A stretch of 64,000 nucleotides of DNA from Opitutus sp. ER46 (GTDB lineage: Bacteria > Verrucomicrobiota > Verrucomicrobiia > Opitutales > Opitutaceae), in assembly GCF_003054705.1 (NCBI RefSeq), contig NZ_QAYX01000024.1, positions 620,001-684,000 of the forward strand. Direction: 5' to 3'. The translations under genes and the position numbers were made by a program. Shown one piece after another: positions 39,993 through 62,693 of the stretch. The notes under the pieces were generated by a model. The model made no database searches. It was not told where the DNA came from and saw nothing but the letters and a program-made list of their open reading frames with translations. The stretch's first letter is position 1; every line of letters starts with the position of its first letter.

Positions 39993-40070
39993 AGTGTCAC
40001 GCAATACGTGACACTGGCACGGGGCGCCACGAGGGAGCGGAAGAAAAAGTGTCACGTATTGCGTGACACT
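39993..40070. repeat. Palindrome pair A
   Basis: Two 23-bp palindromes, 39993-40015 and 40048-40070, each with left arm AGTGTCACG(T/C), centre AAT/ATT and right arm (A/G)CGTGACACT. The second is the exact reverse complement of the first. Start-to-start distance is 55 bp. They lie between the EEP nuclease gene and panB. Confidence 0.95.
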
Positions 40071-40407
40071 TAGCGGAGCCAATTTTTCGGTCCGGTCGGG
40101 CCTGTGCCGGCGGCGACCCGGGGTGCGGCATCTCCTTCGACCTGAGCGGCATGCCCGGGAATTCGCCGCGGGTGAGGGCCGATCGCGCTGACGGGCACGA
40201 GCGCCGGCGCGGCAAGCGGGCTGACGCAGGGCGGTTGCAGGACAGAAATTCGATTTGCGCGGCGGACAAAATCCGCGACCTTGGCGCCGTCTAGCGCGAA
40301 CACGATCGCGACCGGACACTCAAAACCACAACTCATCCTTCCTCGGGACCCGAGGCTTCATCGCCATGCGACAAGCACCCATGTCCTCTTCCGCCGCCTG
40401 CCCGCCG

Positions 40408-40427
40408 GTTTTCCGAAGTCGGAAAAC
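40408..40427. promoter_or_regulatory. Perfect 20-bp inverted repeat before panB
   Basis: GTTTTCCGA and TCGGAAAAC are separated by AG, ending 12 bases before the panB GTG and just ahead of its GAAGG ribosome site. It could be an operator or an mRNA hairpin limiting translation of the CoA supply operon. Confidence 0.5.
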
Positions 40428-40439
40428 AGCGAAGGCCAG

Positions 40440-41231
40440 GTGAAGACGATCCTCGATTTGGCGCGCGCAAAGCGCGAACAGCAGCCGATTGTAATGTTGA
40501 CGGCGTACGACGCGCTCATGGCGCGCATCGTCGCAGCCTCGGAAGCCGACCTCATTCTCGTGGGCGACAGCGTGGCCATGGTCGTCCATGGCTTTCCTTC
40601 CACCGTGCACGCGACGCCGGAAATGATGGCCGCCCACGTGGCGGCGGTGCGCCGCGGGACGCCCGACATGGTCGTGGTGGCCGACATGCCTTTCCTCTCG
40701 GTGCGCCGCGGGACCGCGTACGCCGCCGAGGTGGCGGGCCAGTTGATGCAGGCGGGTGCGACTGCCGTGAAGGTGGAGGGCGTCACCGGGCACGAGGAGG
40801 TGATCTCGCATCTCGTGGGCAGCGGCATTCCCGTGATGGCCCACCTCGGGCTCACGCCGCAGTCGGTGCACCAGTTTGGGGGTTACCGTTTCCAGGGCCG
40901 CAGCGCCGCCGACGCCGAGCGGCTGCGCGACGAGGCGCGACAGGTCGAGGAACTGGGCGCGTTCGCCCTCGTGCTCGAGTGCGTGCCGTCCGCCCTCGCG
41001 AGCCAGATCACCGAGGAGCGTGCGATTCCAACGATCGGCATTGGCGCCGGCGCGGGGACTTCGGGTCAGGTGCTGGTCATCTCGGACCTGCTCGGGCTCG
41101 ATGCGCAGTTCCAGCCGCGCTTCGCCCGTCGGTACCTCGAGGGCCACCAGTTGATCGGAGAGGCCATAAACCGTTTCACCCGCGACGTGCGGGGCGCCCG
41201 GTTCCCCGCGCGCGAGGAGGTGCTTGCATGA
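40440..41231 (+). CDS. panB: 3-methyl-2-oxobutanoate hydroxymethyltransferase
   Basis: A 263-residue TIM-barrel enzyme that makes ketopantoate from alpha-ketoisovalerate and methylene-tetrahydrofolate, the first committed step of pantothenate synthesis. Motifs: MLTAYDALMARI, LILVGDSVAMVVHG (metal-binding Asp), ADMPFLS, VKVEGV, MAHLGLTPQSVHQFGGYRFQG and IPTIGIGAG. The start is GTG at 40440, with GAAGG five bases ahead; this gives the length of E. coli PanB (264), whereas the longer open frame does not match the family. The stop overlaps panC by ATGA. Confidence 0.94.
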   Translation: MKTILDLARAKREQQPIVMLTAYDALMARIVAASEADLILVGDSVAMVVHGFPSTVHATPEMMAAHVAAVRRGTPDMVVVADMPFLSVRRGTAYAAEVAGQLMQAGATAVKVEGVTGHEEVISHLVGSGIPVMAHLGLTPQSVHQFGGYRFQGRSAADAERLRDEARQVEELGAFALVLECVPSALASQITEERAIPTIGIGAGAGTSGQVLVISDLLGLDAQFQPRFARRYLEGHQLIGEAINRFTRDVRGARFPAREEVLA

Positions 41232-42043
41232 AGATCCAACGCGAACTCGGAGTTCCACCCCGGCCGGACGTCCCGCCGGTCTACACCCGGCGTGCCGGCT
41301 GGCAGGCGGTGCGCGGCGATGCCGCCTGGGCAGGCCGCAGCATCGGCTTTGTCCCAACGATGGGGGCGCTGCACGCCGGACATGAGGCGCTGCTCGCCCG
41401 CGCGCGCGCCGAGAATGAACGCGTGGTGCTCAGCATCTTCGTCAATCCCACCCAGTTCAACGATCCGACCGACCTGGCAAAATACCCGCGCACGCTCGAG
41501 GCCGACCTCGCGCTCGCGCGGTCGTATGTTGACGCCGTCCTCGCGCCCGAGCCGGAGGAGCTGTATCCGGATGCCTATCGCTACCGGGTCACCGAAAACG
41601 AGCTGAGCCGCCGCTGGGAGGGTGCGCATCGCCCGGGTCACTTCGACGGCGTGCTCACGGTTGTCCTGAAGCTCTTCAATCTCGTGCGGCCCACGCGGGC
41701 CTACTTCGGTGAGAAGGACTGGCAGCAGTTGCTGCTGGTGCGCGGCATGGTCCAGGCCCTGTTGTTGCCGATCGAGGTCGTGCCGTGCGCGACCGTGCGC
41801 GAGGCCGACGGGCTCGCGATGAGTTCGCGCAACCGCCGGCTGGCTCCCGCCGATCGCGCGCGCGCCCCGGAGTTTGCCCGGGCCTTGCGCGAGTCGCCCG
41901 ACGCCCCCACCGCCGCCGCGCGGCTGCGCGCCGCCGGTTTCGAGGTCGATTACGTCGAGGATGCCGACGGCGTCCGCATGGGCGCGGTTAGGCTCGGCGA
42001 CGTGCGGCTCATCGACAACTGCCGCCTGCCCGCGGCGCGGTGA
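41228..42043 (+). CDS. panC: Pantothenate synthetase
   Basis: A 271-residue ligase that joins pantoate to beta-alanine using ATP. The HxGH-type nucleotidyltransferase motif is MGALHAGHEALLARAR, followed by SIFVNPTQFNDPTDLAKYPR, HRPGHFDGVLTVVLKLFN, YFGEKDWQQLLLVRGM and ADGLAMSSRNRRL. All active-site blocks are present, and its partner substrate is made by the panD product of the same cluster. ATG at 41228 overlaps the panB stop. Confidence 0.95.
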   Translation: MKIQRELGVPPRPDVPPVYTRRAGWQAVRGDAAWAGRSIGFVPTMGALHAGHEALLARARAENERVVLSIFVNPTQFNDPTDLAKYPRTLEADLALARSYVDAVLAPEPEELYPDAYRYRVTENELSRRWEGAHRPGHFDGVLTVVLKLFNLVRPTRAYFGEKDWQQLLLVRGMVQALLLPIEVVPCATVREADGLAMSSRNRRLAPADRARAPEFARALRESPDAPTAAARLRAAGFEVDYVEDADGVRMGAVRLGDVRLIDNCRLPAAR

Positions 42044-42079
42044 GCGCGGCCGCGCCTTCTCCTTCCGCTTCCAGCTTCC

Positions 42080-43282
42080 ATGAGCAACGTTCTGTTCATC
42101 CTCACCGGCTCGATCGCCTGCTACAAGGCGTGCGAGGTGATTTCCCAGCTCGTACAGCGGGGCCATCACGTGCGCCCGGTCGCCAGTGCGGCCGCCTTGC
42201 GCTTCGTTGGCGCCACCACCCTCGAGGCCCTCACCCACGAAAAAGTGCGCACCGACCTTTGGGCCGAAGGTGAGGCGCTCGATCACATCAATCTCGACCG
42301 CTGGGCCGACGTGACCGTCGTGTGTCCCGCCACCGCGAATACCCTCAACGCGCTCGCGGCCGGCCTGGCGGACAACCTCGTGGGTTCGCTGCTCCTGGCG
42401 CACGATCCGCACAAACCGCTCCTCGTCGCCCCGGCGATGAATCCGGCGATGTGGAAACACCCGGCGACGGTGGCGGCGAGCCGGCGGCTCCGTTCCTGGG
42501 GCGTGCAGTTCATCGAGCCCGCCGCCGGGCGCACTGCCTGCGGCGAAGTGGGCGAGGGGCGTCTGGCCGAACCGGAGACCATCGTCGCCGCGATCGACGC
42601 CGCCCTGGTGCGACCCGAACACCGGCTCCGCGTCCTCGTCACCAGCGGCGGCACCAGCGAGCCGATCGACGGTGTCCGCGTGCTAACCAACATCAGCACA
42701 GGCGCCACCGGCGCCGGCATCGCTGAGCATTTCTCCCGGCTCGGCCACGACGTGCTGCTGGTGCGGGCCGCTACGTCCGTGCCGTTGTCCGCTCCGGGCC
42801 GCGAGGAGACCTACGGGAGCTTTGGCGACCTCGATGCCGTCCTGGAGCGCCGGCTCCGCGAAGAGCACTTCGACGTCGTCATCCATGCGGCGGCCGTTTC
42901 CGACTACGCGATCGAGGCGATCGAGGTGGACGGGCAGACGTGGCGACCCGGCGCCGGCAAGATCCCGTCGCAGGCCACGCCGCTGATCCGGTTGCGGCGC
43001 AATCCCAAGCTCCTCGACAAACTGCGGAGCTGCAGCCTCAACCCCGCCATCCGCGTCGTGGCTTTCAAGCTGACCAAGGAGGCCGACGACGCCGCCATGC
43101 GCGCGGCGGTCGAGGCGATCCTCGCCCACGGGACCGCAGATTACGTCGTGCAGAACGATCTCGCGCAGCGTGAGCCGGACGGGGCGTTTCCCGCCGACAT
43201 CTGGGGCCCGCAGCGCACCATCGTCGCCCACTGCCGCGACCGCGCCGACATCGCCTTGGCCCTCGCAACGCTCCTGTCGTAG
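42080..43282 (+). CDS. coaBC: Bifunctional phosphopantothenoylcysteine synthetase/decarboxylase
   Basis: A 400-residue fusion. The N-terminal half is the flavin-dependent decarboxylase CoaC (FILTGSIACYKACEVISQLV, CPATANTLNALAAGLADNL, PAMNPAMWKHPA and GRTACGEVGEGRLAEP with the catalytic Cys). From about residue 180 the C-terminal half is the synthetase CoaB (VLVTSGGTSEPIDGVRVLTN, HAAAVSDY, KIPSQATPLIRLRRNPKLLD and VVAFKLTKEAD). It converts 4'-phosphopantothenate plus cysteine to 4'-phosphopantetheine, following panC and CoaX in the pathway. It lies 36 bases after panC. Confidence 0.95.
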   Translation: MSNVLFILTGSIACYKACEVISQLVQRGHHVRPVASAAALRFVGATTLEALTHEKVRTDLWAEGEALDHINLDRWADVTVVCPATANTLNALAAGLADNLVGSLLLAHDPHKPLLVAPAMNPAMWKHPATVAASRRLRSWGVQFIEPAAGRTACGEVGEGRLAEPETIVAAIDAALVRPEHRLRVLVTSGGTSEPIDGVRVLTNISTGATGAGIAEHFSRLGHDVLLVRAATSVPLSAPGREETYGSFGDLDAVLERRLREEHFDVVIHAAAVSDYAIEAIEVDGQTWRPGAGKIPSQATPLIRLRRNPKLLDKLRSCSLNPAIRVVAFKLTKEADDAAMRAAVEAILAHGTADYVVQNDLAQREPDGAFPADIWGPQRTIVAHCRDRADIALALATLLS

Positions 43283-43286
43283 CCGG

Positions 43287-43404
43287 CTCTTTCTCTTACT
43301 CCTACTCTTACTCTTTCTCTCCAACTCCGTCAGCCCGCCGAATCCTGAGGATACCGGCACAAACTCGGAGAGAGTAAGAGAAAGAGGAAGAGTAAGAGAA
43401 AGAG
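43287..43404. repeat. Pyrimidine/purine inverted repeat between coaBC and coaX
   Basis: A C/T tract (43287-43320) and a G/A tract (43369-43404) are built from CTCTTTCTCTTACTC-like units in opposite orientation. At least 15 bases pair perfectly and the rest imperfectly, so the 118-bp stretch can fold into a large hairpin inside the operon. Confidence 0.8.
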
Positions 43405-43474
43405 TACGATCAGACGGGCTCCACCCACTCTCACTCTCACTTTCACTCCGAAGGCACTCGTACTTTTTTGCCCC

Positions 43475-44266
43475 ATGCTCCTCTGTCTCGATATCGGTAA
43501 CTCCCAGATGCACGCGGGCGTGTTCGATGGCGACACGCTGCGTCTCCAGTTTCGCAAGACGACGCACCCCCTCGGGGCGTCGGACGAGTTCGGCGTGTTC
43601 TTCACGTCGGTCCTCCGGGAAAACGGACTCGATCCGCGCGCGATCACGCAGGTCGCTCTCTGCTCCGTCGTGCCGGCGGCCGTGTATCCGATCCGCAACG
43701 CCTGCCTGAAGTACTTCCACCACGAGCCGTTTGTGCTGCAGGCGGGCGTCAAGACCGGTCTCCGCGTCCGCTATCGCAACCCGCTCGAGGTCGGCGCCGA
43801 TCGCATTGCCGGTGCCATCGCGGCGGCGCAGCGCCGGCCGGGCGGCAATCTCATCGTTGTCGATTGCGGCACCGCGACGACCTTCGATGTCGTCACCAGC
43901 TCAGGCGACTACCTCGGCGGTGCGATTCTCCCCGGCATCGGCATCTCGGTGGAGACGCTCGCCGGCCGCACCGCCAAGCTGCCTTCCGTCGAGATCGCGC
44001 GTCCCGCGGCCGCCCTCGGGCGCTCCACGGTCGAGAGCATCCAGGCTGGCGTCTATCACGCGCATGTCGGCGCCATCCGACACCTCGTCGCCGAGCTCAG
44101 CCGCGAAGCCTTCGACGGCAACCGGCCGTTCATCGTCGCGACCGGCGGATTCGCGCGGCTCCTCCTGACGGAGAACCTGTTCGATGAGGTCGTGCCCGAG
44201 CTGGTCCTGCTCGGCATCAAGCGCGCCGCCGAACTCAACCCCGAGACTGCCGCCACCCCCGCCTGA
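43475..44266 (+). CDS. coaX: Type III pantothenate kinase
   Basis: A 263-residue kinase of the actin-like ASKHA fold that phosphorylates pantothenate. It has the phosphate-binding loop [18 protein letters not shown], the pantothenate site [14 protein letters not shown], the catalytic Asp in [15 protein letters not shown] and [18 protein letters not shown]. Type III kinases are not feedback-inhibited by CoA and need a monovalent cation. It follows coaBC after a repeat-containing gap and is five bases from panD. Confidence 0.94.
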
Positions 44267-44271
44267 TTTCC

Positions 44272-44640
44272 ATGCAACTGACACTTCTGAAATCGAAGCT
44301 GCACCGCGCCACGGTGACAGCGGCCGACCTCCATTACGAAGGCTCGATCGCGCTCGGGCCCGACCTGCGTGCGGCGGCCGGGCTGCTCGAGTTCGAGCGG
44401 GTCGAGATCTACAACGTCACGAATGGCGCGCGCTTTGCCACCTACGTGATCGCCGGTCGCTCGCGCGGCGAGGTCATGCTCAACGGCGCCGCCGCCCGGC
44501 TCGTGCAGCCTGGCGACCACGTTATCATCGCCGCCTACGCGCAGTTCACGCCCGAGGAGGCCGCGAAGCACCAGCCGACCGTCGTCCTCCTCGACGCCAA
44601 GAACCGGCCGAAGCAGAAGAGGGCCCCGGCGCGGGAGTGA
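44272..44640 (+). CDS. panD: Aspartate 1-decarboxylase
   Basis: A 122-residue pyruvoyl enzyme precursor that makes beta-alanine for pantothenate synthetase. The self-cleavage site is Gly24-Ser25 in LHYEGSIAL, close to the usual position. [28 protein letters not shown] and the metal/active-site context match PanD. Some lineages need PanM/PanZ for cleavage; none is seen here. It closes the panB-panC-coaBC-coaX-panD cluster. Confidence 0.95.
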
Positions 44641-44650
44641 GCGGCCCAAG

Positions 44651-44784
44651 TCTTTCTCTTACTCTTAATCTTCCTCTTTCTCTCAAGCGTTGCGCCGGAC
44701 CGGCACTTTTGGCCGTCCCGAAGCGCTGGCTCGCCTCGACGACCGACCGGCTGAGACTGGGAGAAAGAGGAATAGTAAGAGAAG
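44651..44784. repeat. Pyrimidine/purine inverted repeat between panD and clpB
   Basis: A C/T tract (44651-44684) and a G/A tract (44761-44784, GAGAAAGAGGAATAGTAAGA onward) are in opposite orientation, pairing over about 12 bases perfectly. Same family as 43287-43404. Confidence 0.75.
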
Positions 44785-44907
44785 GCGGTGCAGAGCGCCC
44801 CCGTGCCGGTTTGGCGCGGTGGCGTGACACGCTGTCCACCGGCGGCACACCCCGGGGCGGCATTTGCCGAGGGCGCCGCGCGGGGCTATCTTGGCGCGCC
44901 GGCTGCG

Positions 44908-44915
44908 AAGGAGGA
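44908..44915 (+). promoter_or_regulatory. Strong ribosome binding site of clpB
   Basis: AAGGAGGA lies six bases before ATG 44922, the best Shine-Dalgarno sequence noticed in the window. It fixes the start against a long open frame upstream. Confidence 0.85.
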
Positions 44916-44921
44916 TGCACT

Positions 44922-47555
44922 ATGGATTTTGCCAAACTCACCCAGAAGTCGCGCGAGGCGGTCGCGGAGGCCCAGAACCTCGCCCGCCGTCAGTCGCACA
45001 ACGAGGTTGATACCTGGCACCTGCTCGCCGCGCTGATCGAGCCGGAGGACGGCATCGTCAACGGGCTCCTGCACAAGCTGAACTCGACTCCGAGCGCGAT
45101 GCAGCTCGCCGTCAGCCGCGAGTTGGAGCGGCTGCCCAAGGTGTCCGGCAGCGTCGACACCTCCAAGGTTTACGTCACCCAGGCCGTCAACGAGGTGCTC
45201 ACCCGCGCCGAGGAGGAGGCCGACAAGCTCAAGGACGAGTACGTCTCGGTGGAACATCTGTTTCTGGCGCTGCTCGACGTGGGCAAGCCGGATGCCCTCA
45301 AGAAGCTGTTCAAGAGCTTCGACCTCGACCGCGCGAAGGTGCTCGCGGCGATGAAGGAGATCCGCGGCTCGCAGCGCGTGACCACCGACAACCCGGAGAG
45401 CACGTACCAGGCGCTCGAGAAGTACGGCACCGACCTCGTGGCCCTCGCGCGGAAGGGCAAGATGGACCCCGTCATCGGACGTGATGAGGAGATCCGCCGT
45501 ACCATCCGCATCCTCTCCCGCAAGACGAAGAACAACCCCGTGCTCATCGGCGAGCCGGGCGTCGGCAAGACCGCCATCGTCGAAGGGCTCGCCCAGCGCA
45601 TCCTGCGCGGCGACGTGCCTGAGGGGCTGAGGGACAAGACCCTCTTCGCCCTCGACATGGGCGCGCTCGTCGCTGGCGCGAAATACCGCGGCGAATTCGA
45701 GGAGCGCCTCAAGGCCGTCCTGCAGGAAATCAAGCAGAGCGAGGGGCGCATCATCCTCTTCATCGACGAGCTCCACGTCATCGTCGGCGCCGGCAAGACC
45801 GAGGGCGCGATGGACGCCGGGAACCTGCTCAAGCCGATGCTCGCGCGCGGTGAGCTGCACTGCATTGGCGCCACCACGCTCGACGAGTATCGCCAGCACA
45901 TCGAGAAGGACGCCGCGCTCGAGCGCCGCTTCCAGCCGGTCGTCGTGGACCAGCCGAGCGTGGAGGACGCGATCTCGATCCTCCGCGGCCTGAAGGAGCG
46001 CTTCGAACTGCACCACGGCGTGCACATCCAGGACAACGCGCTGGTGAGCGCGGTCACGTTGTCGAACCGCTACATCTCCGACCGCTTCCTGCCCGACAAG
46101 GCCATCGACCTGATGGACGAGGCGTGCGCCATGATCCGCACCGAGATGGACTCGATGCCGCAGGAGCTCGACGAGCTCACGCGGCGCGTGCTCCGGCTCG
46201 AGATCGAGGAGACCGCGCTCGCGAAGGAAAAGGACGAAGCCAGCGCGCGCCGCCTTGAGGCCCTGCGCCACGAACTCGCGGAAGCGCGCGAGCAGGCGAA
46301 GGGCCTCAAGCTCCAGTGGGAGCGCGAGAAGGCCGCCATCGACCACACCCGCAAGCTGCGCGAGCAGATCGACGCCGCCCGCCTCGAGATGGAAAAGGCG
46401 GAGCGCGCGTACGACCTCAACCAGGTCGCCGAACTCCGCCATGGCCGCATCCCGCAGCTCGAGGCCGAGCTCAAGCGCCTCGAGCAGAAGAGCCGCGACC
46501 AGGTTGCGTCACTGTTCAAGGAGGAGGTTTCCCAGGAGGAGATCGCCGAGGTCGTCGCCAAATGGACCGGCGTGCCGGTCACCCGCCTGATGGAGGGCGA
46601 GAAGGAGAAGCTGCTCCGGCTGGAGGACGTGTTGCACCAGCGCGTCGTCGGCCAGGAGGAGGCGGTCTCGCTGGTCACCGAGGCCATCCTGCGCGCGCGC
46701 AGCGGCATCAAGGATCCGCGGCGCCCGGTGGGCAGTTTCCTGTTCCTGGGTCCGACCGGTGTCGGCAAGACGGAGCTGGCCAAGACTCTCGCCGAGACGC
46801 TCTTCGACACCGAGGCGGCCATCGTCCGGATCGACATGTCCGAGTACATGGAGAAGCACAGCGTGGCCCGGCTGATCGGTGCGCCTCCGGGCTACGTGGG
46901 CTACGAGGAGGGCGGCCAGCTCACCGAGGCCATTCGCCGCAAGCCGTACGCGGTCGTCCTCTTCGACGAGATCGAGAAGGCGCACCCCGACGTATTCAAC
47001 GTGCTGCTGCAGGTGCTCGACGATGGCCGCATCACCGATGCGCAGGGCCGCACGGTCGATTTCAAGAACACGATCATCATCATGACGTCGAACATCGGCT
47101 CGCGCTTCCTGCTCGATGGCGTGCAGGGCGATTCGATCCCCGACAGTGTGCGCGAGAGCGTCATGGCGGAGCTGCGCCGGTCGTTCCGGCCGGAGTTCCT
47201 GAACCGCATCGACGAGACAATCCTCTTCAAGCCGCTCACCCTCGAGGAGATCACGACCATCGTGGATCTGCTCGTGGCGGACCTGAACCGGCGGCTCGCC
47301 GAGCGCCGGGTCACGGTCGCGCTCGACCCGAAGGCCAGGGAGTGGGTGGCGGAGAAGGGCTACGACCCGGTGTTCGGCGCCCGCCCGCTGAAGCGCTTCC
47401 TGCAGCGCAACATCGAGACCAAGCTCGCCCGCGCGCTCATCGGCGGCGAGATCGCCGAGGACAGCACCGTGACGTTCTCGATCCACGGGGACGAGCTGGT
47501 GATGTCCGGTGCCGGCGCCGCGTCGCGCCCTTCCCCCGCCAAGCGCGCCCGCTGA
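44922..47555 (+). CDS. clpB: ATP-dependent chaperone ClpB
   Basis: An 877-residue Hsp100 disaggregase. It has the N-terminal Clp repeat domain (about 1-145), the first AAA+ module with GEPGVGKT at 210 and [13 protein letters not shown], a full coiled-coil middle domain (about 400-525; long Glu/Lys/Leu heptads) and the second AAA+ module with GPTGVGKT at 610, [13 protein letters not shown] and [14 protein letters not shown]. The full middle domain separates ClpB from ClpA/ClpC. It works with DnaK to rescue aggregated proteins. No CIRCE element was recognised upstream. Confidence 0.96.
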
Positions 47556-47557
47556 AA

Positions 47558-47727
47558 ACTGTCACGCAATACGTGACAGTTCCCGCCCGCGGCTCCGGCG
47601 CACAGTGTCACGTAATACGTGACACTGGAGCGCGCACGCCAGAGGGGGGATCCGGGAAAACTGTCACGTAATACGTGACCGTGGGCGCGCGCGGCGGACG
47701 GCGAAAGTGTCACGTAATACGTGACAC
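47558..47727. repeat. Palindrome cluster B (four copies)
   Basis: Four 23-bp palindromes of the same family: 47558-47580, 47604-47626, 47660-47682 and 47706-47727. Start-to-start distances are 46, 56 and 46 bp. The first begins three bases after the clpB stop. They occupy the space between the convergent clpB and SNF2 genes. Confidence 0.95.
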
Positions 47728-47771
47728 GATATCTCACCACGGGAGACCGGGGAAAGCGCGATGCGGGCGTG
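47604..47771. repeat. Long direct repeat, copy 1 (downstream side of SNF2 gene)
   Basis: This matches 51630-51806 in the same orientation, including the spacers GGAGCGCGCACGCCAGAGGG and GCGCGCGGCGGAC and a final 41-base identical block (47731-47771). It contains three of the palindromes. Confidence 0.9.
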
Positions 47772-47811
47772 TGGGCCACGCGTCGGGACCCGAAGCGGCG
47801 CGGTTTCGGCG

Positions 47812-51522
<3,711 letters not shown>

Positions 51523-51629: not shown

Positions 51630-51753
51630 AGTGTCACGCAATACGTGACACTGGAGCGCGCACGCCAGAGGGGGATCTGGGAAAACTGTCACGTATTACG
51701 TGACACTGAGCGCGCGCGGCGGACATCGGGAGTGTCACGTAATACGTGACACT
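51630..51753. repeat. Palindrome cluster C (three copies)
   Basis: Palindromes at 51630-51652, 51685-51707 and 51731-51753 lie in the divergent region between the SNF2 and SDR genes. Start-to-start distances are 55 and 46 bp, as in cluster B. Confidence 0.95.
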
Positions 51754-51806
51754 TTGCCGGGGGACATCTCACCACGGGAGACCGGGGAAAGCGCGATGCG
51801 GGCGTG
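51630..51806. repeat. Long direct repeat, copy 2 (upstream side of SNF2 gene)
   Basis: Counterpart of 47604-47771. Just before it, CCCGCTGAAA also matches the bases before the first palindrome of cluster B, as if copy 2 were copy 1 with its first two palindromes merged into one. The 41-base identical block is 51766-51806. Confidence 0.9.
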
Positions 51807-51843
51807 CGGGCAACGGGGCGGGCGTGCCTCGGTCTAGGTGGCG

Positions 51844-52829: not shown

Positions 52830-52842
52830 CGTTGCGCGCCGA

Positions 52843-53760
52843 ATGGCCGAACCCATCCGTTTCTACAATCGCTACACCCGTAAGATCGAAGCCGAGAAAA
52901 TGTACGGCGAGCGCTGGGTGCGCATGGCGTACGAGAACCCCGTCGGCCGCTTCTTTGTGTGGGCGATGGCCCGACGCGCCGCATTCTCGCGTTACTACGG
53001 CACGAAGATGAACAAGCGCGTCAGCGCGCTGCGGATCCTGCCGTTCATCGCGCAGTACGACATCAACCCCGACGAGTTCGCGAAGTCGCCGTTCGACTAC
53101 AAAACCTTCAACGAGTTTTTCTTCCGTGCCCTGAAGCCTGAGTGCCGCCCCATCGCGGCGGGCGAGAAGGTCGCGGTCTTCCCGGCGGACGGACGCCACC
53201 TGGCTTTCCAGGACGTCGCGCAGGCGCCGGGGTTCTACGTCAAGGGCGTGACCTTCACGCTGGCGGAGCTTCTCGGGGAGGCGTCCCTGCCGGCGGACCA
53301 GCAGACGCTCGCCAAGACGTTCACCGGCGGGGCGATGGTCATTTCCCGGCTCTGCCCCGTGGACTACCACCGTTTCCATTTCCCTGTCTCCGGACTGCCC
53401 GCGGAGTCCCGCCGAATCGACGGCTGGCTGTACTCGGTCAGCCCGGTGGCGCTGCGGCGGAACCTGCGCTACCTGATCGCCAACAAGCGCGAAATCACGC
53501 TCATCGACTCCCCGCAGTTCGGCCAGGTCGCGATGATTGAGATTGGCGCGACCAACGTCGGCTCGATCAGCCAGACCTTCGTGCCGGGCCGCGAGGTGAA
53601 GAAGGGCGACGAGAAAGGCATGTTCGCCTTCGGCGGTTCGTGCGTCGTCACCGTTTTCCAGCGCGGCCGCATCCGGTTCGACGCTGATGTGCTCCAGCAA
53701 AGCGCGGAGCACATGGAAACGTTTGCCCGCATGGGCGACCGGCTCGGCGAGGCGCCCTGA
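52843..53760 (+). CDS. psd: Phosphatidylserine decarboxylase
   Basis: A 305-residue proenzyme that converts phosphatidylserine to phosphatidylethanolamine at the membrane. Motifs: FNEFFFRALKPECRPI, VFPADGR, RLCPVDYHRFHFPVSG and MIEIGATNVGSI. The self-cleavage site is GGSC (FAFGGSCVVTVF), where the usual residue after Ser is Thr; Ser266 should become the pyruvoyl group. The protein is of the group with an N-terminal extension (about 60 residues; RFYNRYTRKIEAEKMYGERW). No pssA gene is in the window. Confidence 0.93.
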   Translation: MAEPIRFYNRYTRKIEAEKMYGERWVRMAYENPVGRFFVWAMARRAAFSRYYGTKMNKRVSALRILPFIAQYDINPDEFAKSPFDYKTFNEFFFRALKPECRPIAAGEKVAVFPADGRHLAFQDVAQAPGFYVKGVTFTLAELLGEASLPADQQTLAKTFTGGAMVISRLCPVDYHRFHFPVSGLPAESRRIDGWLYSVSPVALRRNLRYLIANKREITLIDSPQFGQVAMIEIGATNVGSISQTFVPGREVKKGDEKGMFAFGGSCVVTVFQRGRIRFDADVLQQSAEHMETFARMGDRLGEAP

Positions 53761-53787
53761 CGTCCGCGCGCCGGCGGGGCCGCCGCC

Positions 53788-55674
<1,887 letters not shown>

Positions 55675-55682
55675 GATGAAAG

Positions 55683-55766
55683 TGGTGCCCGAGGCGGGAC
55701 TCGAACCCGCACGCCTTACGGCAAAGGCTTCTAAGACCTTCGTGTCTGCCATTCCACCACCCGGGC
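55683..55766 (-). tRNA. tRNA-Leu (anticodon UAG)
   Basis: 84 bases on the minus strand, starting GCCCGGGTGGTGGAATGGCA and ending CTCGGGCACCA. The acceptor stem pairs GCCCGGG with CTCGGGC (one G-U), the anticodon loop is CTTAGAA with anticodon TAG, a long variable arm fits a class II leucine tRNA (TTTGCCGTAAGGCGT) and the T-loop is GGTTCGAGTCC. The CCA end is encoded. It reads CUN leucine codons. Confidence 0.95.
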
Positions 55767-55868
55767 GGGGGCGAACGGGGGGCAGACTGCCGAGGGCCCA
55801 TTCCTGAGGGCAAGAGCGAAGACAGGGGGGCGGGCCTGGGATGACGCAGGCGGCCGGACGATCCGGGC

Positions 55869-55907
55869 AAAAAAACAGGCGGGTGGCCGCCGCAGCAGCC
55901 ACCCGCC
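55869..55907 (-). terminator. Rho-independent terminator of the M20 dipeptidase
   Basis: On the minus strand, GGCGGGTGGC and its perfect 10-base complement flank a ten-base loop, followed by TGTTTTTTTG. It begins about 20 bases after the dipeptidase stop. Confidence 0.9.
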
Positions 55908-55928
55908 CGGGTTTCGCGCCGCGGGGGT

Positions 55929-57293
55929 TTAGCGCGCGAGTTCCTGCCAGAGCCAGGCGCTCATGCGCTGGCCGGCGGCGAAGCAGTCGAGATCGAGCCG
56001 CTCGTCGGGCGAATGGATGTTCGCGTCGGGCAGCGCGATGCCCAGCAGGAGGGTGTCGACGCCGAGGACCTGCTTGAAGTCGTTCACGATCGGGATGGAT
56101 CCGCCCTCGCGCGTGAGCACGGGCTTCTTGCCGAAGCCGGCCTGCAGGGCGCGCAGCGCGGCCTTGGCGTGGGTGCTCGTGGGCTCGACGAGGTAGGGCG
56201 TGGAACCGTGGGCGTCGGTGATCTCCATCCGCACAGTCGGCGGGCAGAGCTTCTTGAGGTAGGCGATGGTGGACTTGAGCACCTTCTCCGGCTTTTGGCC
56301 GGGGACGATGCGCAGCGTCAGCTTCGCGCGGGACCACGCCGGGACGATGGTCTTGCCGCCCGGGCCCTGGTAACCGCTGGTGAGCCCGTTGATCTCGAAG
56401 GTCGGGCGGGCGACGGTGCGCTCGATCGAGCTGTAGCCGGCCTCGCCGTGGAGCTTGGGCACGCCGAGCATGCGGCGGTACTTTTCCTCGGAGCCGAAGA
56501 TGCGACGCAGCTCCTTCCGCTCCAGCGCGGAGAGCGGGCGGACGTCATCGTAGAAGCCGGGAATGGTGATCCGGCCCTTGGCATCGTGCATCTGCGCCAG
56601 CAGGCGGCAGAGCGCGGTGGCAGGGTTCTCGACGGAACCGCCGAAGATGCCGGAGTGGAGGTCGCGGGCGGGCCCGCGAAGCGTGACCTCAAGCGCGACG
56701 GTCCCGCGCAGGCCGTAGGTCAACGCCGGCATGTCCTTGGCGGGCATATCGCCGTCGGAGACGACGACTGCATCGCAGGCGAGCTGCTTGCGCATCTGGC
56801 GGAGGAACGGCGTGAGGCTTTCGCTGCCGACCTCCTCCTCGCCTTCGAAGACGAAAATCAGGTCGCACGGCAGTTCGGTGCCGGTCTTCAGGTAGGCCTC
56901 GACGGCCTTCAAGTGGGCGAAGAGCTGGCCCTTGTCGTCAGCCGAGCCGCGGGCGAAGAGGTTGCGGCCGCGGCGCGTGGCCTCGAACGGCTGCGAATGC
57001 CACAACTCGAGCGGGTCCGGCGGCTGCACGTCGTAGTGGCCGTAGATCAGGACGCGCGGGCGGCGGCCGGAGCGCGCCGGCGTGCGCGCGAGCACGATCG
57101 GATTGCCCTTGGTCGGGCAGAGCTTGGCCGTGAGGCCGATGCTGGCGCAGTGCTGGGTGAGCCACTTGGCGCAGGCGAGGAGATCGCCGCGATGTTCGGG
57201 CTGCGCCGAGATGCTCGGGAACCGGAGAAACTCGCCCAGCTCCTCGAGGAAGCGGGGCTGGTTCACCTTCAGATAGTCGAGAACGGTTTTCAT
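55929..57293 (-). CDS. M20 family dipeptidase
   Basis: A 454-residue zinc peptidase of the CNDP/PepV-like M20 group. The metal ligands and catalytic residues lie in YGHYDVQPPDP (His, Asp), RGSADDKGQ (bridging Asp), VFEGEEEVGS (catalytic Glu and ligand) and VSDGDMP (ligand Asp), with the final His in ANIHSPDERL. The lid domain (about 200-370) contains RGPARDLHSGIFGG. It is cytoplasmic and cleaves dipeptides. ATG 57293 matches the family start (MKTVLDYLKVNQPRFLEELG). It is transcribed alone. Confidence 0.93.
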   Translation of the reverse strand: MKTVLDYLKVNQPRFLEELGEFLRFPSISAQPEHRGDLLACAKWLTQHCASIGLTAKLCPTKGNPIVLARTPARSGRRPRVLIYGHYDVQPPDPLELWHSQPFEATRRGRNLFARGSADDKGQLFAHLKAVEAYLKTGTELPCDLIFVFEGEEEVGSESLTPFLRQMRKQLACDAVVVSDGDMPAKDMPALTYGLRGTVALEVTLRGPARDLHSGIFGGSVENPATALCRLLAQMHDAKGRITIPGFYDDVRPLSALERKELRRIFGSEEKYRRMLGVPKLHGEAGYSSIERTVARPTFEINGLTSGYQGPGGKTIVPAWSRAKLTLRIVPGQKPEKVLKSTIAYLKKLCPPTVRMEITDAHGSTPYLVEPTSTHAKAALRALQAGFGKKPVLTREGGSIPIVNDFKQVLGVDTLLLGIALPDANIHSPDERLDLDCFAAGQRMSAWLWQELAR

Positions 57294-57500
57294 GAGTTGT
57301 GATGGCGCGGCACGAAGCGGCGGGAGCCGCCGCGGGGCCGGGCTGGTGGGCCCGGCGCCGGTCGTGTCGATGCGCATGTCTGCGACGAGTCCGACACAAT
57401 CCGCGGCGCCGCACAAATCAGATGTCAACGGTGCTGGAGGGGGCTCGATGCACCCGCCGACGGATGGCGTTCTCCGGCGGACGGCGCGCTGGCGCGGGCA

Positions 57501-57983
57501 TCACGGCACCGGCTCGAATTCGCGGTGCGGGACGGGGGGCGCCGGCAGTTCGGGCGGGGGGCCTGCCGGCGCGGGCGGTTGCGACAAGGTGATCGTCCAG
57601 GCGTCGTTTTCGCCGCCGAGCGAGACGATCGTGGTGGGCCGGCCGCGATGCGCGGCGAGGAGGGCGTTGATCCAGGGCTCGATCGCGGGGTCGGACGCGC
57701 CGGGCGCGTCGCCGGCAAGGACGATAAGGTCGGCGTCGAGCGCGGCGGTCACGGCGCGATCGGCCCAGTAGGAACTCGCGAGTTGCGCGAAGCGCCACAG
57801 CCGCGGCTGGATCTCCACGCGGAGGCCGGCGCGACGCACCACGTGTCCGACGATGCCCGTGGCGCGCCGGGCGGCCGCGATGTCGGCGTAGCCGATGAAG
57901 ACACGGAAGGGGACCACAGGCAGGGGACGCCGCCGGCTCAGGCTCCGGGGACCAAGGTGACGGGCGGCGGGCGGGGTTTTCAT
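57501..57983 (-). CDS. Conserved hypothetical protein
   Basis: A 160-residue protein with an ordered central part (FRVFIGYADIAAARRATGIV, then RLWRFAQLASSYWADRAVTA and LIVLAGDAP) that looks like a Rossmann-like or receiver-like fold, and a proline-rich tail (LSQPPAPAGPPPELPAPP). No family was recognised and no function is offered. The start at ATG 57983 is preferred; the frame continues open upstream without similarity-like pattern. Confidence 0.5.
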   Translation of the reverse strand: MKTPPAARHLGPRSLSRRRPLPVVPFRVFIGYADIAAARRATGIVGHVVRRAGLRVEIQPRLWRFAQLASSYWADRAVTAALDADLIVLAGDAPGASDPAIEPWINALLAAHRGRPTTIVSLGGENDAWTITLSQPPAPAGPPPELPAPPVPHREFEPVP

Positions 57984-58193
57984 CTCGGCCCAGCGTACCG
58001 AACGCGGCAGCGTCCTCGCAGTAGGTGGAGCCCGTAGCCAGAGGCGGGTGCCCGGATGGGCGCCCGGCGCGGCCGGTGGAGTAGGCCAAGACCCACCTGT
58101 AAACGGGGTGAAGACCGCAGCGTCCGTTTTGGCTGAGGCGCGGACTAACCGGCCACGCGCGACCGCCGGGAACGCGCCCAACCCAAACCACGC

Positions 58194-60059
58194 ATGTACT
58201 CGTTATCCGTCCTTACGGCGCTCGTGCGCCGGATCAGCGAACGCGCGCTCTCGCCGCTCGCTGCTGCTTGTCTGTGGCTCGTGCTACTGGCCGCGCCGCA
58301 CTCCGTCTCCGCGCAGACGTTCCTGGCGGAGTGGGGCTTCGATGACATCGGGCGCATCGGGCCCACCGGGCTCGCGTTGGATACCTCCGGCTCCACGACC
58401 CTCCTCTACGTGGCCGACCAGCCGGGCGGGCGTATCCTGAAAATCGATGCCGCCACCGGCGCCCGGCTGGCGGTCTGGGGCCAGACCGGCAACGGCCCGC
58501 TCGAGTTCAACAGCCCGTACGGCGTCGCGGTCGATCCGGTGTCGCACGACATCTACGTGGCCGAGCGGACAAACCATCGCATCCAGCGCCTCACCGCCAA
58601 CGGCGTGTTCGTGATGGGCTGGGGCGAGCTCGGCACCGAGCCCGGGAAGTTCGACGGCCCGATCGGCGTCGCCGCGGACGCGCAGGGCAATGTGTACGTC
58701 GTCGATCACAACAACAACCGCGTGCAGAAATTCCACGTGCAGGGCAGCGCCGGCAACGGGTCGGCGCAACTCGTCACCACGTGGGGCGGCCCCGGCTCCG
58801 CAGCCGGCCAGTTCAACGCGCCCTACGGCCTCGCGCTCGACGCGCAGGGCAACGTCTGGGTGGCGGATGGCGGCAACCACCGCGTCCAGAAATTCGATGC
58901 CAACGGCCAGTTTCTCGCCGCGATCGGCACGTTCGGGACGGGGCCAGGCCAGTTCGTCACGCCGGTCTGGGTGTCGTTCGACAGCGCGGGTGCGCTCTAC
59001 GTGAGCGAGTCGAATTCCGATCCGACCAACCCGGCGGCGCCCGATCTCGCCAACCAGCGGGTGCAGAAATTCAAGGCCGACGGCACCTATGTGCTCGGCT
59101 GGGGCACGTACGGCGAGGGGCCGACCAACTTCAAGCTACCGTTCCAGGTGGTGGTCGACGCGCAGCAGAACGCGTATGTCTCGGACTACTACAACACCCG
59201 GGTCGTGAAGTATTCGCTGAACGCCGCGCCGGCGGGGGGCCGCTTCGTGAACATCTCCTCGCGCCTGCGGGTCAGCTCGGGGCGCTCGCTCATCGCGGGG
59301 TTTGTGATTTCCGGCACCGCGCCGAAGCAGGTGCTGATCCGTGGCGTCGGTCCCACGCTCAGTGCGCTCAACGTGAGCAACCCGCTCCCGAATCCGGGGC
59401 TGCGCGTGTACTCGGGGCAGACGGTGATCGCGAGCAATGAAGACTGGGGCGGGAACGCGGACGTCGCAGCCGCGGCCTCGCGGCTGTATGCGTTTGGCCT
59501 GCCGGCGACGAGCAAGGATGCCGCGCTCCTGGTCACGCTCCAACCTGGGCTCTATACCACGCAGGTGACGGACAATGGCGGCGACGGGGTGGGATTGGTC
59601 GAGGTTTACGATGCCGACACCTCGCCCGGCTCGAGCCTCGTGAACGTTTCCACGCGCGGCTACGTCGAGCCGGGCGACGCCGGCGTGCTGGTGGCGGGCT
59701 TCGTCATCTCGGGCACCGCGCCGAAACGCGTGCTGATCCGCGCGGCTGGTCCGTCGCTCACCCAGTTGCAGGTGCCCGACGCGCTGCCTGATCCGGTCCT
59801 GCGCGTGTACAACTCCGACTCGAAGCTGATTGCCCAGAACGACAACTGGGAGGTCGGCATGACCGTGACCGGGGGCGTCACGGTTGGCACCCTTGCCGAG
59901 CTGCGCACCGCGACCACGGCGACGGGGACGTTTGGCTTTGGCGCCGGGGGCAAGGACGCGGCGGTGCTGCTCACGCTTCCGCCGGGGCTGTACAGCGCCA
60001 TGGTCAGCACCAACGGCACCGCCGGCACCGGACTGGTGGAAGTTTACGGCGTACCGTAA
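58194..60059 (+). CDS. Secreted NHL-repeat protein with shared C-terminal module
   Basis: A 621-residue exported protein. A signal sequence (about 1-42, cleavage near VSA-QT) is followed by a six-bladed NHL beta-propeller (about 45-345), each blade marked by patterns like PYGVAVDP, IYVAERTNHRIQRLTANG and GNVWVADGGNHRVQKFDANG. Residues 350-621 are two tandem copies of the same 130-residue module found at the end of the 3145-6591 protein (AGFVISGTAPKQVLIRGVGP, NPLPNPGL, VIASNEDW, LVEVYDAD). NHL propellers bind proteins or polymers; the module may be a surface or sorting domain. Confidence 0.85.
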   Translation: MYSLSVLTALVRRISERALSPLAAACLWLVLLAAPHSVSAQTFLAEWGFDDIGRIGPTGLALDTSGSTTLLYVADQPGGRILKIDAATGARLAVWGQTGNGPLEFNSPYGVAVDPVSHDIYVAERTNHRIQRLTANGVFVMGWGELGTEPGKFDGPIGVAADAQGNVYVVDHNNNRVQKFHVQGSAGNGSAQLVTTWGGPGSAAGQFNAPYGLALDAQGNVWVADGGNHRVQKFDANGQFLAAIGTFGTGPGQFVTPVWVSFDSAGALYVSESNSDPTNPAAPDLANQRVQKFKADGTYVLGWGTYGEGPTNFKLPFQVVVDAQQNAYVSDYYNTRVVKYSLNAAPAGGRFVNISSRLRVSSGRSLIAGFVISGTAPKQVLIRGVGPTLSALNVSNPLPNPGLRVYSGQTVIASNEDWGGNADVAAAASRLYAFGLPATSKDAALLVTLQPGLYTTQVTDNGGDGVGLVEVYDADTSPGSSLVNVSTRGYVEPGDAGVLVAGFVISGTAPKRVLIRAAGPSLTQLQVPDALPDPVLRVYNSDSKLIAQNDNWEVGMTVTGGVTVGTLAELRTATTATGTFGFGAGGKDAAVLLTLPPGLYSAMVSTNGTAGTGLVEVYGVP

Positions 60060-60585
60060 TCGGACCTCGGTGCGTCGGCCAGAGTCGCGTCGCTCCCGCG
60101 GCGGCGCGGCTCCGGTATGCACGGAACCCCGCGTGGGCGATGCGGACAGTTGCGGATCATGCCACGATCCACGACCAACCGATCCATGCGCGTTGAACGG
60201 CCGGTGAAGGCGTTGCGCCAAGCGCCCACCGATGCCGGCGAAACCGACGAAAAGAAGGCAGCCGGCGCAAACGGGACGGGCAGCCGGATGCGGCGGCGGC
60301 CCGGTCGCGCCGCCTCGCTGCGATCAAGTTCGAACCGCACCCGCTCGCAGCGCTGGCGCGTGCCGAAAAAGGGCGCGCGGCGGATGCGCCGGGGCAATGC
60401 GGTGAGGAAGGGTGCGAAGTAGCGACCAGGCCGCGGGGCCGTCACGGCGGTGCAGATGACGTCCGCCCGCTCGACGTCCGCCGCGTTTGCCCAGAAACAA
60501 AAAAAGCCCCGCACGAATGGCGGGGCTTTGCTTTGGGCGCGCTGCGGGCCGGCGGAGCCGATGACCGCGGCGCACAAACGCGAAC
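60060..60585. other. Intergenic region without recognised gene
   Basis: About 500 bases between the NHL gene and htpG, convergent. Apart from the htpG terminator at 60498-60529 nothing convincing is seen; weak open frames on both strands are very basic or overlap the terminator. Confidence 0.55.
60498..60529 (-). terminator. Rho-independent terminator of htpG
   Basis: On the minus strand the stem GCCCCGC/GCGGGGC, extended by AAA/TTT, has a seven-base loop and runs into TTTTTTTTG. It lies about 57 bases after the htpG stop. Confidence 0.9.
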
Positions 60586-62424
60586 TCAGACGCTCTCGAG
60601 CAGCTTGTTCAGCCGGGCGACCATCGCGGTCGCGTCATCGAGCAGTCCGGCGCTGATCAGCGCGTTGTCGAGGAGCTGCTCGGCGACGAGCTTGGCCTTC
60701 TCCGGCTGCGCGGTGTGCGTCTCGAACAGCCGCTTGATGACGGCGTGGCGCGGGTTGATCTCGAGGTTCACGCGCAGCGGGGTCTCGGCGTCCTTGTTCA
60801 TCGCCTTCATGATGCGGCGCATGTGCGGGGACATGAACTTGTCGGCATTGAGCGCGATGACCGGCGAGTCGACGAGGCGGTCGCTGGGCTTCACCTCGGA
60901 AACGCGTTCGCCGAGGGTGTCCTTGAGCCACTTGGTGAGCGTGGTGACGTCCTCGTCCTTCAGCGCGCCCTCGGGCTTCGGCAGGTCGGCGAGCTTCACG
61001 TCGGCGTGGTCGGCGGCGGTGAGCTTCTTGCCGTCGAATTCGCGGACGTTGTTCATGACGTACTCGTCGACCGTCTCGTAGCAGAACAGCACCTCGAGGT
61101 TGCGGGCCTTGAAGCCCTCGAGGTACGGACCGGACTCGATGGAGGCGCGGTTCGGGCCGACGAGGTAGAAAATCTCCTTCTGGTCGGCGCCCATGCGGGA
61201 AACGTAGTCGGCGAGCGAGGTGGTCTTGCCCTTCTCGGTGAGCGAGGACTCGAAGCGGAGCAGCTTCACGAGCTGGTCCTTGTGGGTGAAGTCGAGCGCG
61301 GCGCCCTCCTTCAGGAATACGCCGAACTCCTTGTAGAACTCGGTGTAGCCCTCGGCCCGGTTCTTGGCTTCCTCCTCCAGGAATTTAAGGAAGCGCTTCG
61401 TGATGACCTTGTTGAGTTTCTCGAGGAGCGATTTGTCCTGCATCGTCTCGCGCGAGATGTTCAGCGGGAGGTCCTCGCTATCGACGACGCCCTTCAGGAA
61501 GCGGAGCCACTCGGGCAGGATGTCCTTGGGCTTGGCGTCGATGAGGACCTTGCGGCAGTAGAGCGAGACGGACGGTTCGAGGCGGGAGAAGCCGAGCTTT
61601 TCAGTGTTCTCCTTCGGCACGAAGAGCAGCGCGTTGATGGCGAGCGGGGCGTCGGCCGAGAAGTGCAGCCGGAGGCGCGGCTCGTCGAAGGCGTGGGCCT
61701 GGAACTTGTAGAACTCGGTGTACTCCTCGTCCTTGACCTCGTTCTTGTTGCGCAGCCAGAGGGCCTGGACGGTGTTGATGCGCTTGCCGTTGAGGTTGAT
61801 CGGGAACGAGACGAACGCGCTGTAGCGCTCGAGGATCTCCTTGATCTTCCAGTCCTGGGCAAAGTCGGCGCAGTCATCCTTCAGCTCGATCACGATCTTG
61901 GCGCCGCGGCGCTGGCCCTCGGCCTCCTCGATCTCGTAGGTGCCGCTGCCGTCGCTGGACCACATGTGGCCGGGGGCGTCCTTGCGCCAGGAGTGCGTGT
62001 ACACCTTGACGGACTTCGCAACCATGAACGCCGAGTAGAAGCCGACGCCGAACTGGCCGATCAGGTTGGAGTTCTTTGCGCCAGATTCGCCGAGCGCCTG
62101 GAGGAAGGCCTTCGAGCCGGAGTGGGCGATCGTGCCGAGGTTCTCGACGAGTTCCTCGCGCGTCATGCCGACGCCGAAATCCTGAATCGTGATCGTCTTC
62201 GCCTTGTCGTCGGTCGTGACGTTGATCTCGAGCGTCAGGTTGTCGTCGAAGACCTCCTTTTCGGTCAGCTGCGTGTGGCGTAGCTTTTCCAGCGCGTCGG
62301 ACGCATTCGAGACCAGCTCGCGGACGAAGATTTCCTTCTCCGTGTAGAGCGAGTGGATCACGATATCGAGCAGCTGCTTGATCTCGGTTTGGAACTCAAA
62401 TTTCTGCGGAGTGGAGTTGGACAT
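60586..62424 (-). CDS. htpG: Molecular chaperone HtpG (Hsp90)
   Basis: A 612-residue bacterial Hsp90. The N-terminal GHKL ATPase has ELVSNASDALEKLR, IQDFGVGMTREELVENLGTI and GQFGVGFYSAFMVA. The middle domain (about 225-490) contains the catalytic-loop region LPLNISRETMQDKSLLEKLN, and the C-terminal dimerisation domain ends DATAMVARLNKLLESV. It remodels client proteins in an ATP-driven clamp cycle. It is monocistronic with a strong terminator. Together with clpB it gives the window two general stress chaperones. Confidence 0.96.
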   Translation of the reverse strand: MSNSTPQKFEFQTEIKQLLDIVIHSLYTEKEIFVRELVSNASDALEKLRHTQLTEKEVFDDNLTLEINVTTDDKAKTITIQDFGVGMTREELVENLGTIAHSGSKAFLQALGESGAKNSNLIGQFGVGFYSAFMVAKSVKVYTHSWRKDAPGHMWSSDGSGTYEIEEAEGQRRGAKIVIELKDDCADFAQDWKIKEILERYSAFVSFPINLNGKRINTVQALWLRNKNEVKDEEYTEFYKFQAHAFDEPRLRLHFSADAPLAINALLFVPKENTEKLGFSRLEPSVSLYCRKVLIDAKPKDILPEWLRFLKGVVDSEDLPLNISRETMQDKSLLEKLNKVITKRFLKFLEEEAKNRAEGYTEFYKEFGVFLKEGAALDFTHKDQLVKLLRFESSLTEKGKTTSLADYVSRMGADQKEIFYLVGPNRASIESGPYLEGFKARNLEVLFCYETVDEYVMNNVREFDGKKLTAADHADVKLADLPKPEGALKDEDVTTLTKWLKDTLGERVSEVKPSDRLVDSPVIALNADKFMSPHMRRIMKAMNKDAETPLRVNLEINPRHAVIKRLFETHTAQPEKAKLVAEQLLDNALISAGLLDDATAMVARLNKLLESV

Positions 62425-62558
62425 GCTTGATGCGATGTGAGGTTGGAAAGGAACGCCGGACGGTCCGGCGAGCCCGCTAGTTTAGCGGCTCAGAGGAAAA
62501 ATCAAGCCACGCGAACGCGCGGCACGAGCCGGACGGCGCGATGGGGACGAACGGGTAA

Positions 62559-62693
62559 AGTGTCACGTATTGCGTGACACTGGCGCGGGGCTGGTTGCGA
62601 CGTTCAGGGTGCGGAACCTGCTATAGAGCGGACGGTTGTGTATCAAATGTGCGCGCGGACAGGCGAATGAAGTGTCACGTAATACGTGACACT
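62559..62693. repeat. Palindrome pair D
   Basis: Palindromes at 62559-62581 and 62671-62693, start-to-start 112 bp, which is twice the 56-bp spacing seen elsewhere. They lie in the 324-base gap between the htpG start and the end of the transporter gene, in opposite central orientation (ATT then AAT). Confidence 0.95.

Follow-up and report, generated by a model that had tools for sequence, protein, structure and literature searches.

The 64,000-nucleotide stretch of Opitutus sp. ER46 analysed here (assembly GCF_003054705.1, contig NZ_QAYX01000024.1, positions 620,001 to 684,000; hereafter the window, with position 1 as its first letter) contains eleven copies of a 23-bp palindrome, which are arranged in four arrays. 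Comparisons within this genome and with its relatives make it very probable that the palindromes are dispersed, helically phased sites of a dedicated small helix-turn-helix (HTH) protein of the lambda repressor type, with which they co-evolve. The palindromes form a genome-wide repeat family to which a gene for this protein is linked, the genes of its homologs are flanked by matched palindromes, and the arm bases covary with the recognition helix. In addition, dispersal is type-specific, the spacings are helically phased, and the presence is lineage-specific. From these observations we infer binding, cooperativity and regulation by the HTH protein.

The original prediction had described the eleven copies from the letters of the window, and all of them were found at the expected starts. 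Seven are identical to AGTGTCACGNAWTNCGTGACACT, two have one mismatch, one has two and one has three, and 100 shuffles of the window did not yield a single match. A scan of the window with the self-complementary consensus, allowing up to seven mismatches, retrieved these eleven only, and it was verified that none lies before position 39993. The whole genome (5.71 Mb, 25 contigs) contains 66 exact copies of the core TGTCACGNAWTNCGTGACA versus none of a reversed-pattern control, and 69 copies of a slightly shorter core pattern. All places listed for the core were covered, and they group into 25 arrays or singletons, mostly intergenic. The core is present in 38 of 150 genomes of the window's family, with 1 to 66 copies each. 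A motif restricted to this stretch, or a random spacing, had been named as evidence against a functional or mobile family; the core counts and the phased spacings described below are the opposite of both.

The partner protein was revealed by an all-against-all comparison of 983 proteins called around palindromes. Among the 25 clusters listed two were larger than the HTH cluster, which was chosen because of its genomic place: it comprises eight small proteins (118 to 205 aa as called), seven of which are encoded between or beside palindromes of the window's type. The proteins of this unnamed family are about 120-150 aa long. A search for a linked conserved regulator had been suggested, and in the window's genome a regulator-like gene indeed adjoins one of the arrays. 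It is located at C24:708,627-709,073 (also delimited as C24:708648-709001), about 25 kb beyond the window and 47 bp from a four-site array, next to a gene with a Competence domain (PF03772). A profile search, which scored 28 of the 98 first-look candidates of the window's genome, detected the HTH family in 73 of the 150 family genomes, with one match in the window's genome. In 387 genomes from across the phylum all 17 hits fell into the window's family. The protein database holds 773 homologs; among the 120 of these that were listed no Pfam domain is annotated, and the named ones are called "hypothetical protein".

The HTH family yielded only sub-threshold Pfam matches, to YdaS and HTH_3, and neither a Y1 match nor a recognised catalytic domain. 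An assignment to the YdaS toxin family (PF15943) is not supported, with a best score of 22.6 bits versus a curated cut-off of 30 and a match below the cut-off in five of seven proteins. An AlphaFold2 model (predicted local distance difference test 77, predicted template modelling score 0.52) consists of five helices. Residues 58-120, approximately, align with lambda-repressor-like HTH domains, and the helix of residues 89-97 takes the place of the recognition helix, so that the modelled fold looks lambda-repressor-like. The ratio of nonsynonymous to synonymous substitution rates (dN/dS) was 0.05-0.19 in 15 of the 19 close pairs for which it was defined.

The palindromes that flank the homologs have the same design, i.e., an AAT or ATT centre and arms of about 9-11 bp, and other arm sequences. 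Examples of the flanking arm types are AGTGTCACG, GATGTCACG, ATTGTCACG, AGTGTCACC, TTTGTCACC, TTTGTAACG, AAAGTAACC, TTTGTCATC, CATGTCAAC, TTTGTCACT, AGTTTCACG, CAAAGTCCG and CAATGTTCG. An AAT- or ATT-centred palindrome was found in 156 of 265 gene-adjacent windows of 200 bp, versus none of 516 windows at a distance of 500-900 bp (133 distinct domains, about 15 profile matches, mostly the weakest, being left out). At 100 of 137 homolog loci, which comprise 130 from profile matches and seven earlier ones and include some cases of the same gene in another record, at least one palindrome is present within 420 bp, and at 71 of the 137 palindromes are present on both sides. The inner hexamers to the left and to the right are identical at 70 of these 71 two-sided loci. 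Protein and site co-diverge, so that a dozen or more matched types exist within a single bacterial family, the only one in which the system has been seen so far.

To characterize this correspondence at the level of single residues, all distinct proteins with one or more palindromes, 96 in number, were assigned their best-paired palindrome, and the arm bases were compared with 109 protein columns. The mutual information with the arm bases was highest in the recognition helix, and the seven columns 76-82 contributed to 13 of the 25 strongest pairs. Arginine at column 89 coincides with C at arm base 9 in all 34 cases (G on the opposite strand), glutamine with T in 8 of 10 and alanine with G in 28 of 40. 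Arginine at column 79 is accompanied by C or T in 86 of 86 proteins, aspartate or glutamate at column 82 by C in 68 of 71, valine or leucine at this column by T in 8 of 8, and glutamine at column 78 by A in 79 of 83. At column 66, arginine goes with G in 7 of 8 and lysine or glutamine with T in 85 of 86. These pairs resemble classic residue-base contacts. As a further approach, changes of residue and base on the same branch were scored in a tree built without columns 60-92, for 654 column-base pairs. The top five of the 109 columns were 82 (P 2.8e-7, with arm base 9), 79 (1.2e-5), 89 (2.4e-5), 80 (5e-4) and 78 (6e-4), of which columns 82, 79 and 89 alone survive a strict correction over all pairs. 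As far as sequences can tell, the covariation strongly supports protein binding of the palindromes. The reading as protein-binding sites, one of two offered originally, is thus retained in a qualified form; in addition to the covariation, it is favoured by the regulator-like gene beside an array and by the relatives beside matched palindromes.

The type of palindrome that is dispersed in a genome was then compared with the type that flanks its HTH gene; copies adjoining the HTH gene are part of the counts, and the lists of cognate types, taken from the survey of the 137 homolog loci, were typed by hand, as were the counts. GTAACC-type palindromes occur in 44 of the 150 genomes with up to 74 copies, GTAACG-type palindromes in 23 with up to 39 copies, and the controls were zero in the rows shown. 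All 14 genomes with a GTAACC-flanked HTH gene contain at least five GTAACC copies, and 13 of them lack GTAACG; all ten genomes with a GTAACG-flanked gene contain at least four GTAACG copies, and seven of them lack GTAACC. Among the 77 genomes without a detected homolog, GTAACC was found in eight (at most three copies) and GTAACG in five (at most five copies). For a third type, GTCACC, eight cognate genomes were written down before counting, and the prediction held in all eight with at least eight copies each (G088 10, G117 16, G097 14, G017 16, G009 26, G073 8, G064 25 and G020 21). GTCACC is absent from the window's genome and present in 21 of the other 142 genomes; its predicted absence where no homolog was detected was confirmed in 71 of 77 genomes. 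For the window's own type, a homolog was detected in 29 of the 38 genomes with the core versus 44 of the 112 without it (P 1.3e-4), and in 13 of the 14 genomes with at least ten copies. Taken together, the palindrome type dispersed in a genome is the one found beside its own HTH gene.

The sites also keep to preferred spacings. Of 44 neighbour spacings of up to 200 bp in the window's genome, 22 measure 45-48 bp and 15 measure 55-56 bp. A full four-site layout near 46-55-46 is present in 9 of the 25 arrays or singletons and a 45-55-36 layout in one more; in three four-site arrays the middle gap is lengthened to 79, 81 or 126 bp. Across genomes and types the spacings cluster at 44-47, 53-58 and 65-68 bp, with few larger ones (72, 78, 85 and 88 bp). 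It had been remarked that the values in the window differ by about one helical turn, and this was borne out across genomes: a set typed by hand from listings for three palindrome types had a period of 10.4 bp, with R 0.67 for 56 spacings and 0.68 for the 38 that were left after repeats within genome and type had been collapsed. None of 5000 uniform nulls was as strong, and a separate set of 63 spacings from fetched loci had a period of 10.9 bp. Because the spacings step by about 10.4 bp, the sites tend toward one face of the helix, irrespective of palindrome type. The spacers themselves have fixed lengths and strongly divergent sequences. When each spacer was oriented so as to show GAGGG, 16 of the 17 spacers in the 55-bp class had this motif near the middle.

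Perfect stems, runs of A or T at many edges and the longer stems beside HTH genes would also be in line with a function as RNA hairpins, e.g., bidirectional terminators, with a secondary linkage to the HTH gene. This explanation is very unlikely. In the window's genome arm pairing drops to near background at more than 11 bp from the centre, and it is broken at offsets 2 (0.51) and 10 (0.64), while the inner half-site bases are kept. Since pairing ends about 11 bp out and the half-sites vary independently at offset 10, the pattern is easier to reconcile with a duplex binding site than with a hairpin. Furthermore, according to a simple gene caller, divergent, tandem and convergent gene pairs flank 4, 17 and 4 of the 25 arrays, respectively, and the choice of bases covaries with the recognition helix. 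The half-site AGTGTCACG does not occur outside palindromes in 270,620 bases (the median of its anagrams is 1), which is not the pattern of a DNA uptake sequence.

Several results weigh against the palindromes being sites of a dedicated, co-evolving HTH protein. No palindrome was detected by the criterion applied at 37 of the 137 homolog loci, and none was found 3′ of the HTH gene in the window's genome. The protein of this genome has glutamine at column 89 together with arm base G, contrary to the main trend. The covariation pairs are not independent of each other, and the second-highest mutual information was obtained for column 43, which is not part of the HTH. Columns 43 and 66 did not exhibit any same-branch change in spite of their high mutual information, and because of this their signals may reflect shared descent. 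Next to HTH genes the stems of the palindromes are often longer and locus-specific (pairing of 0.59 to 0.40 at offsets 12-18 versus a background of 0.28), which exceeds the need of simple dimer binding. Six genomes without a detected homolog hold 2 to 17 GTCACC copies, and no homolog was detected in 9 of the 38 genomes with the window's type, TGTCACG, including G115 with 18 copies. Lastly, dN/dS was 0.30-0.63 in 4 of the 19 close pairs.

In the mechanism that we propose, the recognition helices of an HTH protein dimer would contact the two halves of each 23-bp palindrome. Neighbouring dimers would be positioned on the same face of the DNA, at spacings near 46, 56, 66 and 77 bp, and would bind cooperatively. 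The HTH gene would be regulated by the sites adjoining it. Sites of the matching type are dispersed over the genome, most of them in intergenic regions and some in frame within genes. Some sites are located just upstream of promoter-like sequence, as at the HSP90 gene of the window, so that neighbouring genes could come under the control of the protein. Alternatively, the protein on its phased arrays might shape or mark the nucleoid instead of regulating genes. The dozens of well-conserved sites in helically phased arrays would be compatible with such a chromosome-organising role, as would the genes next to the window's arrays, which do not share a common pathway. It is nevertheless rather unlikely, because the patchy presence of this type (38 of 150 family genomes) and of the protein (73 of 150) makes the system look dispensable.

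Apart from protein-binding sites, a spreading composite repeat had been considered originally, and part of this idea is supported by the 25 arrays or singletons, by the patchy distribution within the family and by empty sites in relatives. At least 120 stretches contain the exact 23-mer, in records of Opitutaceae, Opitutae/Opitutia, Opitutus or Verrucomicrobia, and none of the six other same-genus genomes among the 150 has the core. The HSP90 gene is located beside the CNNM gene in 16 of 23 fetched loci of genus-mates, and none of these 16 readable spacers holds a palindrome. The sequence TTGATTTTT is kept in all 17 CNNM-HSP90 spacers, i.e., those of the 16 genus-mates and of the window's genome, and the flanks of the empty sites were too diverged for defining a target duplication. 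Insertion was also seen within a gene that, judged from its sequence, presumably encodes a protein similar to 3beta-hydroxysteroid dehydrogenase (3beta-HSD). Of 32 loci 23 could be parsed, the remaining nine not fitting the search expression, and in 12 of the 23 a loop of this gene contains an in-frame palindrome, of several types. The type of the insert was that of the genome's own HTH flank in all five clear cases (G043, G023, G017, G052 and the L097/L081 record), G027 being left unjudged because of its degenerate insert. In this loop, which follows AHLLAE.AL (L306, L307), some genomes have other inserts, with short CTCAA/CCAAAT-like repeats, and because of these the loop looks like a permissive insertion site.

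At several loci (L025, L050, L054, L065, L079 and L084 of CANIJN; L037, L104 and L119 of CANHJG) the palindrome was seen by eye to be central in an element of about 130 bp with inverted ends near TATTACTCTGTTA. These elements would be in line with the palindromes being short non-autonomous elements of a DDE or other transposon that happen to carry the operator of a host regulator, the HTH protein. This is unlikely: inspection by eye did not reveal TATTACTCTGTTA-like inverted ends in the arrays of the window's genome, spacers diverge at fixed lengths, and a single design is common to many palindrome types. On contig C22 of the window's genome, a 1496-bp insertion sequence with a DDE transposase (DDE_Tnp_1_4; L160, 3485-5010) splits one palindrome centrally. 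Its ends are CTGGATTCC and CTGGATCCC, and it has an apparent 7-bp target duplication, GTAATAC.

A linked transposase of the type of repetitive extragenic palindrome (REP)-associated tyrosine transposases (RAYT) had also been proposed as a check, and this one turned out negative for the Y1 genes examined. The palindromes might be a REP or bacterial interspersed mosaic element family moved by such a Y1 (HUH) enzyme, with the HTH gene as a passenger. Copy number, intergenic location, pairs and in-frame insertions are REP-like, the window's genome has 13 Y1_Tnp (PF01797) matches, 12 of them in open frames of 322-336 aa (L136-L147), and GTAG REPs, including intragenic ones, are described for Opitutus terrae in PMC3733652. 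In contrast, when 2.3-3.3 kb around each of 12 of these 13 matches were inspected, no palindrome with up to six mismatches was found. In G124, with its 24 copies, a search for Y1 at an E-value of 0.001 was negative, and G017 and G023 likewise have palindromes without Y1. A GTAG or CGTC tag at the stem foot was not seen by eye in the arrays of the window's genome or at 68 loci of seven other genomes, and the arm sequence tracks the HTH protein. It is highly improbable that a RAYT-type enzyme moves this family. In L140 (1987-2766) a translated frame contains two closely spaced copies of RAPTRGAT, possibly belonging to a CRISPR-like array beside a Y1_Tnp gene.

The four arrays of the window are all located between called genes, as had been claimed, at distances of 3 to 211 bp, and the spacings given for them were correct; the palindromes are listed without a strand. 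Array 1 (39993..40015 and 40048..40070, spacing 55) is flanked by genes for an Exo_endo_phos protein and a ketopantoate hydroxymethyltransferase. Array 2 (spacings 46-56-46), in the intergenic region of a Clp-type AAA ATPase gene and an SNF2-like gene, starts 3 bp past the former and consists of 47558..47580 (two mismatches), 47604..47626, 47660..47682 (three mismatches) and 47706..47728 (one mismatch). Array 3 (spacings 55-46) comprises 51630..51652, 51685..51707 (one mismatch) and 51731..51753, between the divergent SNF2-like and short-chain dehydrogenase genes. Array 4 (spacing 112) is in the CNNM/HSP90 spacer: 62559..62581 precedes the conserved TTGATTTTT in the HSP90 upstream region by about 53 bp, and a distance of 56 bp separates 62671..62693 from the CNNM/CorC gene. 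A feature that the original prediction had not mentioned is that arrays 2 and 3 (starting at 47558 and 51630) have about 180 bp in common, including non-palindromic spacers and the right flank (47604..47785 and 51630..51818, + strand, ends approximate), the second array being one palindrome shorter. Because of this common sequence, arrays 2 and 3 look like copies of one segment, flanking the gene of the 1236-aa SNF2-like protein (47812-51522). The 32-bp spacer of the 55-bp pair in array 1 (40016..40047, +) has GAGGGA in its middle, and GAGGGG is found at the corresponding place in a 33-bp spacer of array 2 (47627..47659, +) and a 32-bp spacer of array 3 (51653..51684, +).

It is tempting to speculate, and we do so tentatively, that the dedicated HTH protein and its sites represent a new class of selfish or domesticated genomic repeats. 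The HTH gene, without a recognised nuclease, and its operator would multiply jointly, host replication or repair enzymes would copy the operator, and recurrent switches of specificity would lead to lineage-private pairs. If so, the system would be a natural collection of orthogonal repressor-operator pairs. The HTH recognition code is directly testable and there are many candidate orthogonal repressors; the question is also raised how binding sites multiply without a transposase of their own. Searches of the open PMC library, with subscription papers and preprints outside their scope, did not list a description of the system, and by this literature, protein-database names and Pfam the HTH protein and the palindrome family appear to be undescribed.

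Among known systems, autoregulators of the XRE/Cro type (phage repressors, C proteins of restriction systems, HigA-type antitoxins) have in common with the present protein the HTH fold and palindromes beside their own gene. In contrast, there are dozens of dispersed, phased sites here, palindromes on both sides at about half of the homolog loci (71 of 137), phylum hits in one family only (17 of 17) and a best Pfam match below the cut-off. Rickettsia palindromic elements resemble the in-frame inserts of the 3beta-HSD-like gene; according to PMC10969869 these palindromic repeats are inserted in frame in protein-coding genes. The unit described here is much shorter (23 bp or a pair), mostly intergenic, and has a linked protein. 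MatP-matS, SlmA, ParB-parS and Noc are, like the present system, cases of one protein with many dispersed palindromic sites, and the half-sites of matS are oriented opposite to those of the palindromes here. Unlike in these systems, the type of the site differs here between close genomes.

The best known case of dispersed bacterial palindromes with a linked gene is that of REPs and RAYT transposases. There, and in REPINs, a gene that is present once or a few times is flanked by a palindrome that is scattered in dozens, and gene and repeat form matched pairs. Both systems have dozens of scattered palindromes that are mostly located between genes and often form pairs at a preferred spacing. Intragenic REP copies are known as well (PMC3733652), matching the occasional in-frame intragenic copies found here. 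In contrast to RAYTs, the linked protein looks lambda-repressor-like and has no Y1 match in Pfam, and the palindromes are symmetric, without a visible GTAG/CGTC tag and without a link to the Y1 genes examined. The family is thus REP-like in its behaviour and spread, yet by its defining features it is not a REP/RAYT system: its partner, apparently a DNA-binding protein, has no recognised transposase domain, and many natural protein-site pairs are present in one family.

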